Shown here: positions 1 to 9,359 of the stretch, piece after piece
Layout: each line of letters opens with the position of its first letter
Numbering within the stretch: the stretch's first letter is position 1
Assembly: GCA_009838385.1 (NCBI GenBank)
Contig: VXRS01000191.1
Location: 1 to 9,520 of the forward strand
Direction: 5' to 3'
Length of the DNA: 9,520 bases
Origin: Dehalococcoidia bacterium
GTDB taxonomy: Bacteria; Chloroflexota; Dehalococcoidia; Tepidiformales; Tepidiformaceae
Position numbers and translations under genes: made by a program
The notes under the pieces: model-generated
The model's input: the letters and a program-made list of their open reading frames with translations, nothing else
The model's database searches: none
What the model was told of the DNA's origin: nothing

Positions 1-188
1 GGATCGAGTTCATCGTCGTCGACCGCGAGAGCGAAGATGGCAGCGAGTTCGCTCGGAGGCATAACATCTTCTACCAGCCCGTTTTCATCATCTACGAAGG
101 CGATACGCTCCTCCGTCAGGACGCAACGGTCGCCAGGGAGCGCGACCTGCGCGCCTTCGTCGCCTCGGCCCTCGAGGAGGAAAGCTGA
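1..188 (+). CDS. Thioredoxin-like protein, C-terminal part (5' end outside window)
   Basis: The frame that starts at base 3 is open to a TGA at 186-188 and gives 61 residues beginning IEFIVVDRESEDG. The pattern matches the second half of a thioredoxin fold: a beta strand with VVDRE, a helix with EFARRHNI, the YQPVF segment carrying the expected cis-proline, a strand FIIYEG, and a C-terminal amphipathic helix ending ALEEES. The next two genes show the same order (VEFFSVDRE...GQPGFVVYD and IEFTMVDAN...GHPGFVAIN), so this is a third paralogue in the same cassette. The active site lies upstream of the window, so it cannot be said whether it is CxxC or contains selenocysteine. No cysteine occurs in the visible part. 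Its stop overlaps the next start as TGATG, which indicates translational coupling. Confidence 0.8.
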   Translation, partial: IEFIVVDRESEDGSEFARRHNIFYQPVFIIYEGDTLLRQDATVARERDLRAFVASALEEES

Positions 189-628
189 TGCGCCTCATAG
201 CCCTTGTCGCTACCACCGCTCTCGCCGCGGTCGTGCTTGTGGCCTGTGGCGGGAGCGACCCCGCCCCCACGGCCGCGCCCGCCCAGCCCGAGGCTACCCA
301 GCAGGCTCAGGCCGCCGACGCCCGCGAGGACTCCGCCGTCTCCGCCACGCCGAGGGTCTACTTCATCCACACCGAGTGGTGACCGACCTGCAATGCGCTC
401 CGCCCCGTGTGGGCGGACCTGGAGGAGGAGTACGGTGACCAGGTCGAGTTCTTCTCCGTTGACCGCGAGACCGAAGAAGGCCGCGAGTTCATCCGCGACC
501 ACGGCCTTCCCATCGGCCAGCCCGGCTTCGTCGTGTACGACGCCACAGGCGAGATAACCTACGCCGCCCTCGGCCCCACCCGGGCCGAAGGCGTCCGCGA
601 GCTCGTCGAGTCGGTCGTTCCCCAGTAG
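188..628 (+). CDS. Thioredoxin-like selenoprotein, secreted lipoprotein with U-x-x-C active site
   Basis: Reading the in-frame TGA at 380-382 as selenocysteine gives one 146-residue protein. Residues 1-20 are a lipoprotein signal peptide with lipobox LVAC, so Cys20 would be the lipid anchor. Residues about 21-57 form a low-complexity Pro/Ala/Gln linker. The thioredoxin-like domain follows: strand RVYFIHTEW, then U65-P-T-C68 and NALRPVWADLEEEY, strand VEFFSVDRE, cis-Pro segment GQPGFVVYD, and C-terminal helix. The normal stop is TAG at 626-628. The ATG is preceded by AGGAGG (175-180) at 7-nt spacing, so the start is firm. The TGA sits exactly on the first cysteine of W-C-x-x-C, and a SECIS-like hairpin follows it. 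The protein probably acts outside the cytoplasmic membrane as a thiol/selenol oxidoreductase; its partner is unknown. The alternative is a nonsense-mutated pseudogene, which is unlikely because the next gene shows the same arrangement. Confidence 0.88.
399..417 (+). promoter_or_regulatory. Candidate bacterial SECIS hairpin of the UxxC gene
   Basis: Bases 399-405 (TCCGCCC) pair perfectly with 411-417 (GGGCGGA), leaving a 5-nt loop CGTGT (406-410). The loop starts 23 nt after the TGA at 380-382 and has a G at its second position. Bacterial SECIS elements usually have a small apical loop with a G in the first two positions, about 16-37 nt downstream of the recoded UGA, so this fits. It would recruit SelB-GTP with Sec-tRNA. 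The hairpin lies in coding sequence for LRPVWAD. Confidence 0.75.
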
Positions 629-630
629 CC

Positions 631-1020
631 GTGCGTCCGCTTGCCCTGGCCGCCGCCGTTGCCGTTGCCGCCACAGCCCTCGCCTGCGGGTCCGGCGGCT
701 CGGAGTCGCCCGACCCGACCGCTGCCCCTGCCGCCATCTCCGGCCCCCAGGTTTTCTTCGTCCAGATCGAAACCTGAGGACCGTGAAACCGCCTCCGCCC
801 CGTGTGGGCGGCGCTGCAGGCCGAGTACGCGGACCAGATCGAATTCACCATGGTGGACGCGAACACCCGCGCCGGGGCGGACTTCTCCGACCTCTACGGC
901 ATCCGCGGGCACCCGGGCTTCGTCGCCATCAATGCCAACGGCGAGGTGATCCACGCCGCCCTCGGCCCCTTCGACGAAGAAGGGCTACGCGAACTCGTCG
1001 CCTCGCTCGCGCCTGAGTAG
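631..1020 (+). CDS. Thioredoxin-like selenoprotein with double-selenocysteine U-x-x-U active site
   Basis: From the GTG at 631, 2 nt after the preceding stop, the frame runs to TAG at 1018-1020 with two internal TGA codons, at 775-777 and 784-786. Read as selenocysteine it encodes 129 residues. Residues 1-19 are a hydrophobic export signal ending TALAC; Cys19 is a weaker lipobox. A short Pro/Ser/Ala linker follows. The thioredoxin-like domain begins with strand QVFFVQIET, then U49-G-P-U52, NRLRPVWAALQAEY, strand IEFTMVD, cis-Pro segment GHPGFVAIN and a C-terminal helix. This aligns with classical W-C-G-P-C thioredoxin motifs with both cysteines replaced. No other cysteine remains in the domain, so the two TGA positions are its only candidate redox pair. 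No clear Shine-Dalgarno is seen, which suggests coupling to the upstream gene. A diselenide/diselenol centre is inferred, not shown. Confidence 0.85.
795..811 (+). promoter_or_regulatory. Candidate bacterial SECIS hairpin of the UxxU gene
   Basis: CCGCCC (795-800) pairs with GGGCGG (806-811) around the loop CGTGT (801-805), the same loop and stem as in the preceding gene. The loop starts 23 nt after the first TGA (775-777), identical spacing to the UxxC gene, and 14 nt after the second TGA (784-786). A 19-nt stretch (793-811) is base-for-base identical to 398-416, including wobble positions. One hairpin would have to serve two UGA codons, the second at slightly less than the usual spacing. 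Confidence 0.7.
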
Positions 1021-4380: not shown

Positions 4381-5913
4381 GTGTCGATCCTCTCCCGTCT
4401 CACCTCCACGAGGCTGGCCCTCGTCCTGGGTGCCGCCCTGGCCATCGCCGCGATAGTCGTTCTCCCCTTCGTCCTCAGCGACCGAGGCGTGCCCGCCCCC
4501 GTCGACGGCATCGGCGATATCCCCACCGCCCACCTCGTCCCCCATGACGCCGCGCTCTACGTCGCTCTTTCCACCGATCTTGACTCCCCCTCCTGGGGCG
4601 ACGCATTCGACGAGTCCGAAGACGTGGGCGCCGAAGACCCACTCGCCCAGCTGCGTGAGCTGCTCGCAGGGGAGCTGGGCATCGACTGGGAAGAGGAGGT
4701 CGAACCCTTCCTCGGGGGCGCTGCTGTCTTCTTCATCTCAAGCAGCAGGGACGGAGACGCTGGAGACCCTGCGGGCGCCGTCATCTTCCGAGCCAACGAT
4801 GCGAGCGCCGCCGAGGCGGTCATCCTGGACCGGCGCAGCGACAGTTTCGAGGGACGCAGGTACCGCGACGTGCCTTACAAGGTGATGGAGGAGGGCGGCG
4901 TCCTCGCCGTCATCGGCGACCACTTCGTCTACGCCGCGGACGACCCCACCCTCCGCGCCATCGTCGATACGCATCTCGGCGACACGCGCGCCCTCGCCGA
5001 CGCCGATGACTTCCGCCGCCTCCGCAACGCCCTCGAAGGAGACGCGCTCGCCTTCGTCTACATCCACCCCGGCAACCTGGCGGGCGTGCTGGACGACGCG
5101 CTGGAGCCGTCCGGCGTGGAGGACGCGCCTGGGGAAGAACCGGACATCCTCTCCATCGTCGGCCTCGACAGGCTCTTTGCCGAACCCATCGGCGTCGTCG
5201 TGAAGACCGACGAGGACTCGTTCCGCGTCGAGGCCGCGATGCTCGGCGACCCGGGCCCGCTCGTACCCCTCCTCCGCCCCCGCGACTCCCGCTTCGCCGA
5301 GATGGTCCCCGACGGAACCGTCGTTTTCGTCTCGGCCTACGACGTCGCCGGCGTCGTAGACGAGGCCTTCGGTGACACCGGCCTCGCCGCCCGCCTGCGC
5401 GACGCCGTCCTCGAATCCGCCGACGAAGAAGGCGAACTCGGCCTCGTCGAGGACGTCCTCTCCCTCTTCGAGGGCGAACTCGCGTTGGCCCTGTGGCCTT
5501 CCGCGGACGCGGATGACTTCGAATTCGTCATCCTCGCCGAGGTCGACAACGAGGAGTACGCCCTGCAGCTCCTTGAGGAGCTCTTCGCGGAATCCCTTGA
5601 CGCCGGCGAGGTGGCCCTGCTGGTCGAGGACGGCATTGCTGCGGTCGGCCCCACCACCGCCGCCATCAAGGCCGTGCTCGACGGCGCCGGCCCCTCCCTT
5701 GCCACCTCCGGGCACTTCGCCGCCACTGTCTCCACGCTGGACAGGGAGCTGGCAACCTTCGCGTACGTCGATGTCGGGGGCCTCCTCGCTTCCACCCTCG
5801 ACGAGCTTGACGGCCTCGATTGGGAGGACGACACCCTCGGCTTCATCGTGAACCTCCTCTGGGAGGACGACCGCATGCAGGTCGAGGCCGCCCTCGCGAG
5901 CGGGGGCGACTGA
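4381..5913 (+). CDS. Membrane-anchored DUF3352-like protein
   Basis: The 510-residue product has one N-terminal transmembrane helix (about residues 11-33, TRLALVLGAALAIAAIVVLPF) and a large, very acidic extracytoplasmic domain rich in Asp, Glu and Ala. The segment HLVPHDAALYVALSTDL after the anchor and repeated motifs such as DALAFVYIHPGNL and TVVFVSAYDVAGVVDEAF resemble DUF3352 proteins, which have no established function. The frame is open back to a TTG at 4339. The GTG at 4381 is preferred because GAGGGT lies 5 nt before it and it leaves a standard short cytoplasmic tail (MSILSRLTSTR). It stands alone: a divergent SDR operon lies upstream and a new promoter-like box lies 28 nt after its stop. 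The DUF assignment is from recognition of pattern only. Confidence 0.72.
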   Translation: MSILSRLTSTRLALVLGAALAIAAIVVLPFVLSDRGVPAPVDGIGDIPTAHLVPHDAALYVALSTDLDSPSWGDAFDESEDVGAEDPLAQLRELLAGELGIDWEEEVEPFLGGAAVFFISSSRDGDAGDPAGAVIFRANDASAAEAVILDRRSDSFEGRRYRDVPYKVMEEGGVLAVIGDHFVYAADDPTLRAIVDTHLGDTRALADADDFRRLRNALEGDALAFVYIHPGNLAGVLDDALEPSGVEDAPGEEPDILSIVGLDRLFAEPIGVVVKTDEDSFRVEAAMLGDPGPLVPLLRPRDSRFAEMVPDGTVVFVSAYDVAGVVDEAFGDTGLAARLRDAVLESADEEGELGLVEDVLSLFEGELALALWPSADADDFEFVILAEVDNEEYALQLLEELFAESLDAGEVALLVEDGIAAVGPTTAAIKAVLDGAGPSLATSGHFAATVSTLDRELATFAYVDVGGLLASTLDELDGLDWEDDTLGFIVNLLWEDDRMQVEAALASGGD

Positions 5914-5968: not shown

Positions 5969-6460
5969 CTGAGGAGTGCGCCATGCCCGTCGGACCGAAC
6001 GATCTCGAGACCGCCCGCAAGCTCTTTGAAGAGGGCGGATGGGGCAGCGGCGACCCCTACGGCCCCGACCAGTGGTTCGCCGAGGACGCCGTCATGCGCG
6101 ACATCGTCGGCCACGAGGATGCGCTGCGTGGCCACGAGGAGATCCGCCAGTTCTGGGCCAGCCAGAAGGTCGGCATCACCCTCCGCGTCCCCGTCGAGGA
6201 CCTCTACGTCGCCGAGGGCCACCGCGGCGTCGCCGTCCTCTGGATGGCCTACGTCCAGATCATGGACGAAGAGAACGAGAACTACGCCAAGTGGATTACC
6301 TTCGAGGGCATGTCCCGCCTCGAGTTCAACGACGAAGGCAAGGTCACCCTTGAGGTCGACTACCACCACGGCCCCCAGGGCGTGACCGATAGCTGGGTCG
6401 CGCACTGGAACGCGCGCCGCGCCCGCCCCTGGAAGGAGCTCGGCGAGATCACCGGCGCCT
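5969..6460 (+). repeat. Tandem duplication, copy 1
   Basis: The unit starts at the shared leader CTGAGGAGTGCGCC and runs to the last codon of the NTF2-like gene. Copy 2 begins 535 bp later, with 43 bp of unrelated sequence between the copies. Bases 6044-6253 have no difference from copy 2. Confidence 0.9.
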
Positions 6461-6462
6461 AG
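5983..6462 (+). CDS. NTF2/SnoaL-like protein, copy 1
   Basis: This 159-residue protein has the cone-shaped alpha+beta NTF2-like pattern: an N-terminal helix (ETARKLFEEGG), WFAEDAVMRDIVG, then GHEEIRQFWAS, and several strands (EDLYVAEGHRGVAVLWMAY, KWITFEGMSRLEFNDEGKVTLEVDYHH) ending in a tryptophan-rich tail. Members of this superfamily include ester-bond isomerases, hydrolases and small-ligand binders, so no reaction can be assigned. The start is supported by GAGGAG 6 nt upstream. It is followed after 55 bp by a 91%-identical copy. Compared with copy 2, differences cluster at residue 21 and at 91-135. Confidence 0.8.
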   Translation: MPVGPNDLETARKLFEEGGWGSGDPYGPDQWFAEDAVMRDIVGHEDALRGHEEIRQFWASQKVGITLRVPVEDLYVAEGHRGVAVLWMAYVQIMDEENENYAKWITFEGMSRLEFNDEGKVTLEVDYHHGPQGVTDSWVAHWNARRARPWKELGEITGA

Positions 6463-6503: not shown

Positions 6504-6995
6504 CTGAGGAGTGCGCCATGCCCGTCGGCCCCAACGATCTCGAAACCGCCCGCAAGCTCTTTGAAGAGGGCGGCTGGAGCAGCGGCGACCCCTACGGCCC
6601 CGACCAGTGGTTCGCCGAGGACGCCGTCATGCGCGACATCGTCGGCCACGAGGATGCGCTGCGTGGCCACGAGGAGATCCGCCAGTTCTGGGCCAGCCAG
6701 AAGGTCGGCATCACCCTCCGCGTCCCCGTCGAGGACCTCTACGTCGCCGAGGGCCACCGCGGCGTCGCCGTCCTCTGGATGGCCTACGGCCAGATCATGG
6801 ATGAAGAGAGCGACGACTATGGCCGGTGGGCCAGCTTCGAGGGCATGTCCCGCCTTGAGTTCAACGACGACGGCGAGGTCACCCTCGAGGTCGACTACCA
6901 CCACGGCGGCCAGGGCATCGTCGATAGCTGGGTCGCGCACTGGAACGCGCGCCGCGCTCGCCCCTGGAAGGAGCTCGGGGAGATAACGGGCGCCT
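6504..6995 (+). repeat. Tandem duplication, copy 2
   Basis: This is the second copy of the unit, in direct orientation. It includes the same 14-nt leader with ribosome binding site. Bases 6579-6788 are identical to 6044-6253; the remainder differs at many first, second and third codon positions. Confidence 0.9.
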
Positions 6996-6997
6996 GA
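6518..6997 (+). CDS. NTF2/SnoaL-like protein, copy 2
   Basis: Also 159 residues, differing from copy 1 at 14 positions (21, 91, 98-100, 102, 103, 105, 106, 118, 120, 131, 134, 135). Most lie in the loop and strands around residues 91-106, where NENYAKWIT becomes SDDYGRWAS. These are residues of the second half of the barrel and may alter ligand or partner choice (inference). The frame extends upstream to an ATG at 6473, but the ATG at 6518 matches copy 1 and has the same GAGGAG leader. No promoter-like TAGAAT box lies between the copies, so it is probably cotranscribed with copy 1. Its stop faces the membrane-protein stop across 9 bp. Confidence 0.8.
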   Translation: MPVGPNDLETARKLFEEGGWSSGDPYGPDQWFAEDAVMRDIVGHEDALRGHEEIRQFWASQKVGITLRVPVEDLYVAEGHRGVAVLWMAYGQIMDEESDDYGRWASFEGMSRLEFNDDGEVTLEVDYHHGGQGIVDSWVAHWNARRARPWKELGEITGA

Positions 6998-8691: not shown

Positions 8692-8964
8692 ATGGTCACC
8701 GAGAGCGGCGACGCGGCCCGCACCATGAAGGCGTCCGAGTTCAAGGCAAGGTGCCTCGCCCTCATGGACGAGATCGCCGAGAGCGGTGAGGAGATCATCA
8801 TCACCAAGCACGGCAAACCCGTGGCGAAGCTCGCCCCCTGCGACGACAAGACCGCCAGCTTGTTCGGGCGTGGCGGCGACATCGTCATCCTCGGCGACAT
8901 CATCGAGCCGATTGATGTGGAGTGGGAGGCCGAGACCGACCCCGACCGCGTGCTCAATCCATGA
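8692..8964 (+). CDS. Antitoxin, Phd/YefM family
   Basis: This 90-residue protein contains the Phd/YefM DNA-binding fold: MKASEFKARCLALMDEIAESG, then the strand-turn-strand EEIIITKHGKPVAKLAP (33-49), which is the family signature. The C-terminal half, with VEWEAETDPDRVLNP, is acidic and probably wraps the toxin. The frame is open much further upstream, but ATG 8692 has GGGGAG (8679-8684) at 7-nt spacing. An internal ATG at codon 12 is less likely. The stop overlaps the toxin start as ATGA, typical for coupled synthesis. It should neutralise the VapC-like PIN toxin and autorepress the operon through the repeats just upstream. Confidence 0.92.
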   Translation: MVTESGDAARTMKASEFKARCLALMDEIAESGEEIIITKHGKPVAKLAPCDDKTASLFGRGGDIVILGDIIEPIDVEWEAETDPDRVLNP

Positions 8965-9359
8965 TTCTGCTCGACACGCACGTCCTCGTCTGGTTCTGGC
9001 ACGGCCAGTCCGATTTGGGGGGACGCGCGCGTGAGACCATCGAGCGTGAGTGGCGGGTCGGGAGCGCCGCCGTTTCAACCATCACCTTCTGGGAAGCCGG
9101 CATGCTGCAGGATAAGGGGCGTATCCAGTTGCCCGCGGAAACCGCCGCCTGGCGCGCCTCCCTGCTGCGCGATGGACTCGTCGAGATCCCCGTTGACGGC
9201 GCCATCGCCGCCCGCGCTGGCTCCCTGCGCGACATCCACGGCGACCCCGCCGACCGCGTCATCCTCGCTACCGCCCTTGAGGGCCACCAGCTCATCACCG
9301 CCGATGACCGCCTCCTCGCCTGGCCCGGCGACATCGCTCGCCTCGACGCCCGCGAATGA
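8961..9359 (+). CDS. PIN-domain toxin, VapC family
   Basis: This 132-residue protein is a PIN-domain ribonuclease of normal length. The acidic metal-binding residues are all present: D5 in MILLDTHVLVW, E45 in TFWEAG, D98 in DPADRVI and D115 in ITADDRLL. These would coordinate Mg2+ or Mn2+ and cleave RNA; many VapC toxins cut initiator tRNA or 23S rRNA, but the target here cannot be predicted. ATG 8961 is chosen because it overlaps the antitoxin stop by 4 nt and begins directly at the first beta strand. A Phd/YefM partner with VapC is a common pairing. The gene looks intact. Confidence 0.92.
   Translation: MILLDTHVLVWFWHGQSDLGGRARETIEREWRVGSAAVSTITFWEAGMLQDKGRIQLPAETAAWRASLLRDGLVEIPVDGAIAARAGSLRDIHGDPADRVILATALEGHQLITADDRLLAWPGDIARLDARE

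Follow-up and report, generated by a model that had tools for sequence, protein, structure and literature searches.

A Chloroflexota thioredoxin-domain gene with two in-frame UGA codons at its active site and one hairpin predicted for both

Can a natural thioredoxin carry selenocysteine (Sec, U) in place of both cysteines of its active site? This question is raised by a 9,520-nucleotide stretch of DNA from a Dehalococcoidia bacterium (contig VXRS01000191.1; hereafter the window), in which a small gene, here called gene C, is twice interrupted by TGA. Gene C occupies positions 631–1020 of the forward strand, starts with GTG and, with both TGA codons read as Sec, comprises 129 residues. An earlier note on this DNA had described the frame in these terms, and translation with TGA as U confirmed that the codons at 775–777 (UGA1, U49) and 784–786 (UGA2, U52) are the sole internal stops before the TAG at 1018–1020. 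In the resulting context, IET-U-G-P-U-NRLRPVW, U49 stands at the place of the attacking and U52 at that of the resolving cysteine of the CxxC motif. We consider it quite probable that the product of gene C, likely a lipoprotein, has a thioredoxin domain in which both UGAs of the active site are likely read as Sec, with one downstream hairpin predicted for both.

The reading frame and its UGA pair

A short frame with two stops might simply be a pseudogene or a product of sequencing error, the more so as all 20 matches to gene C in a set of 5.8 billion proteins are stumps of 72–74 residues that start past the motif. Such stumps are, however, what gene-calling programs would produce on reaching a stop at the motif, and they do not discriminate between one TGA and two. 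We aligned the stumps and used the alignment to scan genome contigs, which yielded seven related loci (L001–L007) from metagenome-assembled genomes labelled Dehalococcoidia or Chloroflexi, the nearest of which (L001) is 95.35% identical to the window across 6,860 bp. Both TGAs are present in all eight loci, as UGPU in seven and as UPPU in L007, and are therefore neither chance nor sequencing error; at the two active-site positions of the relatives' genes, including the adjacent paralogues described below, we found Sec or Cys and nothing else. Moreover, the ratio of non-synonymous to synonymous substitution rates (dN/dS) of gene C is 0.088 over the 10 codons before the TGA pair and 0.115 over the 70 codons after it: Purifying selection acts on the frame both upstream and downstream of the UGAs. 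Together with the frozen hairpin codons discussed below, this refutes a pseudogene or an error for practical purposes. The distribution of gene C is narrow: Of 393 genomes searched from the window's class, with at most 10 to 12 candidates scored per genome as in the searches of 400 and 346 genomes below, 28 gave matches; the full gene C was confined to the seven genomes already named, and most hits in the others have one TGA (UxxC). A family search in which all candidates per genome were scored covered 38 genomes and placed gene C in seven, and in one scan of viral contigs 29 stretches fitted a pattern, none of which encodes a relative.

That the TGAs fall on both thioredoxin cysteines, as had been proposed, is borne out by the domain assignment. 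With U scored as C, the Pfam family Thioredoxin (PF00085) matches residues 47–123, a span that includes the motif, with 35.9 bits against a gathering cut-off of 23.5, and the UGA sites align with the CxxC of an ordinary homologue (L056). In place of W-C-G-P-C, gene C has T-U-G-P-U; both cysteines are gone and Thr stands for Trp. An AlphaFold2 model calculated with C for U has ten-residue means of the per-residue confidence (pLDDT) of 95–98 over residues 41–120, and its best solved structural matches are thioredoxins. The loop proline P95, which we take to be in the cis form as in the thioredoxin family, is invariant across 28 sequences of an alignment that includes the CxxC homologue L056. Gene C nevertheless stays below the cut-offs of the TrxA equivalog models (TIGR01068, 31.4 versus 96.8 bits; NF006898, 28 versus 138; NF047697, 20.7 versus 140). 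No named NCBIfam family scored above its cut-off for any of eight proteins scanned, and a domain scan of gene C at E values up to 0.01 returned PF00085 alone, with PF00578 and PF04592 unmatched. The thioredoxin domain is otherwise free of cysteine, again as noted earlier: The only further cysteine, C19 (685–687, forward strand), lies in the N-terminus, which is hydrophobic, ends in LAC and resembles a lipobox. C19 is invariant in all eight loci (read by eye) and is predicted to bear a lipid anchor, which fits the previous suggestion of a surface-anchored protein.

Gene C is the third of three tandem thioredoxin-like genes with the motifs UxxC, UPTC and UGPU, an arrangement that the earlier note had overlooked. 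Gene B (188–628, forward strand) is a lipoprotein-like paralogue, 54% identical to gene C, and needs a single TGA (380–382, U65, forward strand) to be read through to yield UPTC; the TGA and the motif are kept in all eight loci. Gene A is cut by the window start, so that only its C-terminal end (3–188, forward strand) is present and its motif lies beyond the window. In the six loci where this motif is within reach it is UPTC (three), USTC, UGTC or UPQC, with one TGA each; in L003, gene A is lipoprotein-like and carries a long stalk rich in Pro, Thr and Glu. At the second active-site place, the 14 genes of types A and B without exception have TGC and the eight C genes TGA. By eye, the residue before the loop proline also differs, being Gln in 14/14 A and B genes and His in those UxxU proteins that extend so far. 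Upstream of A-B-C in L003 (~147–2832), binding-protein, FecCD-like permease and ATPase genes can be recognized, likewise by eye. In two other loci, L111 and L119, a thioredoxin-like gene has a single Sec, and its partner cysteine is replaced by Ser (UGAS).

The earlier note had named selA, selB, selC and selD as genes to check for. The evidence on this machinery comes from the seven relative genomes: selA, selB, selD and tRNA-Sec scored above their cut-offs in all seven, and ARAGORN found a tRNA-Sec with the anticodon TCA in each of them. Among 14 control genomes, selB passed in two, selA in one, selD in two and tRNA-Sec in five, which weakens the last of these signals; since its model passes in 5/14 controls, it counts only in combination with the anticodon. 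If this lineage had come to read TGA as one of the standard amino acids, the frame would likewise stay open. But TGA is the terminal stop of three genes in the window (at 5913, 6997 and 9359), and it is thus not simply reassigned; where TGA occurs in frame, it takes the place of a cysteine in a redox motif, selD itself carries one in 7/7 relatives, and the Sec machinery is complete in the same seven genomes. We accordingly regard a reassigned code as having a vanishingly small chance of being correct.

The hairpin downstream of the UGA pair

A candidate hairpin for a Sec insertion sequence (SECIS), CCGCCC-CGUGU-GGGCGG, is located at 795–811 (forward strand), 17 nucleotides past UGA1 and 8 nucleotides past UGA2, and gene B has a candidate at 400–416 (forward strand) that is identical in sequence and in distance to its UGA. 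In genes A, B and C the hairpin begins at one fixed distance past the first TGA, which suggests that gene C probably acquired its second UGA within an existing one-UGA design. The codons CTC CGC CCC GTG TGG, which make up most of the hairpin, are identical in 22/22 genes, even though only one of the five lacks synonyms; in gene A, the 3′ arm reads GGGAGG in three of six cases. Considering only degenerate codons of invariant residues, those of gene C are codon-invariant in 6/6 cases in the hairpin region (+5 to +11) and in 19/60 elsewhere (hypergeometric probability 0.0019); the corresponding numbers are 6/6 versus 18/41 for gene B (0.0125) and 4/4 versus 16/29 for gene A (0.118). Across 30 rows, of which 22 are distinct and which include eight one-UGA relatives from further afield, the stem is 96.1% paired, compared to a maximum of 57.1% when the stem is slid along the alignment, and three cells are changed on both sides. 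The published bacterial SECIS model (PMC13188914) calls for a loop of 3–9 nucleotides with G among its first two bases, a stem of 4–16 base pairs, a distance of 16–37 nucleotides from UGA to loop and an energy of −7.5 kcal/mol or lower. Scored against this model with our own script, UGA1 fits in every respect in 8/8 genes B and in 8/8 genes C.

Several observations weigh against such a function. UGA2 of gene C is only 14 nucleotides from the loop and falls within the range of that model in 0/8 cases, and three of the six gene A hairpins fall short of its energy limit. When 60 nucleotides of the window's gene C are folded freely, the minimum-energy structure lacks the hairpin (−22.8 versus −22.7 kcal/mol with the hairpin enforced); the probability of the hairpin is 0.42 in the free fold and 0.73, 0.16, 0.16 and 0.04 after removal of the first 6, 9, 12 and 15 nucleotides, respectively. 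No SECIS-type match to Rfam was obtained in the window at E values up to 1 or in positions 370–880 at E values up to 10. Compared to synonymous shuffles, the hairpin energy has a mean z of −1.25 in 56 Sec genes and of −0.86 in 14 CxxC genes; because the CxxC controls score nearly as low, we rejected shuffle energy as a test for SECIS.

The earlier idea of a single hairpin for two UGAs therefore holds insofar as there is one conserved hairpin, while UGA2 lies just outside the distance range of the published model. This short distance could mean that only UGA1 is read as Sec and that UGA2 mostly ends translation or takes another residue such as cysteine, in which case the functional protein would be either a small fraction of the product or in effect UxxC; with two recoding events so close together, losses would presumably also multiply. 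Yet selection past UGA2 is strong (the dN/dS of 0.115 given above), and TGA is kept at the second place in all eight C genes next to 14 A and B genes that keep TGC, even though Cys could be regained by a single base change. In a second group of UxxU genes described below, moreover, UGA2 lies within that same range in 42/45 cases. We judge decoding of UGA1 alone to be distinctly improbable and predict that one hairpin serves both UGAs of gene C.

A second UxxU group, its origin and its neighbors

The earlier note had called UxxU motifs rare, which needs to be revised: Two-TGA genes of this kind occur in many genomes of another Chloroflexota class. The first pointers were L063 and L086, with UVPU and UPDU; followed through 400 genomes of the phylum and 346 of the other class, a set without overlap with the 393 genomes of the window's class, they led to at least 45 UxxU genes in at least 41 genomes (group 2). 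The 45 consist of L123–L152 (30, all UxxU), 12 of 13 further regions, and L063, L086 and L096; L165 is excluded because it is UxxC. Their motifs include UAPU, UPPU, UPAU, UGPU and UVPU, nearly all of the proteins have a lipoprotein-like N-terminus, and the residues at the loop proline are His-Pro in 44/44 genes that run that far as well as in 8/8 C genes (both read by eye). As with gene C, database proteins are truncated: All 27 found for one member are 73–77 residues long, cover 61–64% of the query and, where named, are annotated as hypothetical or thioredoxin-like. Among 33 of the 41 genomes that were searched for selA, 29 have it above cut-off, one has a fragment below cut-off and three are without it.

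Here, too, the region past the UGAs is constrained. Of the codons CCC ATC GTG, the first is conserved in 41, the second in 42 and the third in 43 of the 45 genes, while the following Leu and Glu codons vary freely. In five genes read closely, a hairpin related to that of gene C starts 19–20 nucleotides past UGA1 and 10–11 nucleotides past UGA2, and the best hairpin chosen automatically lies within the range of the model for UGA1 in 45/45 cases and for UGA2 in the 42 mentioned above. In a set of 24 genes, five of them UxxU, 90.5% of the cells are paired (slid maximum 46.4%), and the 12 cells changed on both sides were matched by 0/500 shuffles. Other measures speak less well for the hairpin: The energy limit of the same model is reached by 27/45 genes and missed by 18/45, and of the five measures compared with shuffles two do not stand out, the three pairs changed on both sides being reached by 133/500 shuffles and the six further pair types by 388/500. 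A separate lipoprotein-like UxxC family with motifs such as DAIWUPFC and DSIWUMSC (L052–L055, L057–L061, L064, L065, L074–L076) has a hairpin within the spacing of the model in 11/14 cases.

Do gene C and group 2 share one origin? A tree built from 95 sequences places gene C among the UxxC genes of the A/B type (30 rows, support 100) and group 2 elsewhere, such that the UxxU label requires two changes. A single UxxU clade is opposed by the approximately unbiased (AU) test, with p-AU of 0.0437 for the 95 rows (quick tree) and 0.00018 for 90 rows (careful method), for which one origin also appeared in 0/200 bootstrap trees. L105 and L109, which duplicate L124 and L123, were not entered in the tree, and the second tree was calculated without five long rows (L062, L098, L094_c, L097_c and L100_c); the UxxU group tested was named after the first tree had been seen, and a long-branch warning was printed for both trees. 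We conclude that the UxxU thioredoxins likely have two origins, with the reservation that the deep branching is not secure with 94 columns.

The gene neighborhood of group 2 raises a further alternative, namely that the Sec pair is a binding site for copper(I) or another soft metal and that the protein is an extracytoplasmic metal chaperone or a maturation factor for metal sites and not a general reductase. We inspected flanks of up to ~1.5 kb for 33 of the 45 genes, leaving out 12 with short flanks, and found a CopA-like P-type ATPase at nine loci, a CsoR-type repressor at four, a small cytochrome c at ten and a DsbA-like protein at eight; 16/33 loci adjoin CopA, cytochrome c or a DsbA-like protein, and in L139, L141, L144 and L152 the order csoR–UxxU gene–copA resembles a copper-export operon. 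These neighbors suggest copper handling or cytochrome maturation for group 2. On the other hand, the remaining 17/33 loci are without such neighbors in the flanks examined, and none of the copper, cytochrome or DsbA-like genes was found in the flanks examined of the eight gene C loci, which is why the copper link may hold for the second group only. Furthermore, a thioredoxin fold that has kept its presumed cis-Pro suits redox work equally well. A metal-binding role in place of a redox one thus appears unlikely to us, albeit less so than the other alternatives, and we retain a redox function for gene C.

Elsewhere in the window, 5983–6462 and 6518–6997 are tandem near-copies of a SnoaL_2-like gene (domain scan of the first only), the copies in the relatives' loci cross-match one another at ~88–92%, and the overlapping genes at 8692–8964 and 8961–9359, of the Phd/YefM-type antitoxin and PIN-domain kind, likely form a toxin–antitoxin pair.

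Relation to known selenoproteins and proposed function

Of the 119 families in Table 1 of a 2026 inventory of prokaryotic selenoproteins (PMC13188914), Sec-thioredoxin (PF00085) is listed as UxxC only, and UxxU is listed only for Prx-like (PF00578), metal-binding/mercuric reductase (NF041115) and FmdB-family (TIGR02605) proteins. The three mentions of UxxU in PMC9312934 likewise refer to Prx-like proteins and a putative mercuric reductase, and in marine metagenomes PMC2398784 reports it for a Prx-like 2 family. The UxxC Sec-thioredoxins accommodate genes A and B; gene C and group 2 share with them the domain, a predicted Sec at the first site and bacterial UGA decoding, but differ from them by predicted Sec at both sites. 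The Prx-like UxxU selenoproteins and SelL also combine a thioredoxin-related fold with a pair of Sec spaced three residues from each other; with PF00578 or low similarity to PF04592, however, they belong to other domain families than gene C. Two small thioredoxin-like Sec proteins, the HUIPC-motif family NF047660 and SaoT (NF040730), are weakly similar to gene C but are UxxC, and gene C scores far under their cut-offs (13.4 versus 105 and 12.5 versus 65 bits). In full-text literature, the coverage of which excludes most subscription journals and all bioRxiv preprints, no paper on a UxxU thioredoxin family was among those listed. What is new is therefore the predicted Sec at both sites of a PF00085 thioredoxin, whereas UxxC Sec-thioredoxins and UxxU in other families are already known.

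SelL of aquatic animals, which relies on a eukaryotic SECIS in the 3′ untranslated region, was reportedly described by Shchedrina in 2007 under a title that mentions a diselenide. An engineered (Se)2-thioredoxin with a diselenide bridge and a synthetic seleno-glutaredoxin 3 are said, by their titles, to have been prepared. Both have Sec for the active-site cysteines of a thioredoxin-fold protein and are in this respect comparable to gene C; they are laboratory-made, though, whereas the UxxU genes described here are natural and under selection.

For gene C we infer, from its sequence and motif, Sec at both sites, a lipid anchor and diselenide chemistry, and propose the following course of events. 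SelB bound to the hairpin would deliver Sec-tRNA at UGA1 and then, 9 nucleotides further on, at UGA2. The mature protein would reside outside the cytoplasmic membrane, where its center would cycle between diselenol and diselenide. For a glutaredoxin peptide, PMC10096412 gives −381 mV for the diselenide analogue and −180 mV for the disulfide. A diselenide center should be fast and strongly reducing, which makes a reductase or repair role likely: As a strong extracytoplasmic reductase, gene C would reduce or repair extracytoplasmic partners and would perhaps itself be reduced by the neighboring UxxC paralogues A and B. The same UxxU design likely arose again elsewhere in Chloroflexota. A bolder version of this proposal, to which we give somewhat less than an even chance, is that nature built (Se)2-thioredoxin twice, that these are the most reducing extracytoplasmic thioredoxins known, with two UGAs 9 nucleotides apart per SECIS hairpin, and that one lineage serves copper export and cytochrome c maturation.

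Genes of this type are easily hidden, as the database matches for the two members searched are exclusively stumps of 72–77 residues. Gene C offers a clean natural test of whether SelB and one hairpin can decode two UGAs three codons apart, for which the one-UGA genes A and B of the same cluster are matching controls. Beyond decoding, a natural and conserved UxxU thioredoxin makes it testable why cells would want so reducing a center outside the cytoplasm.
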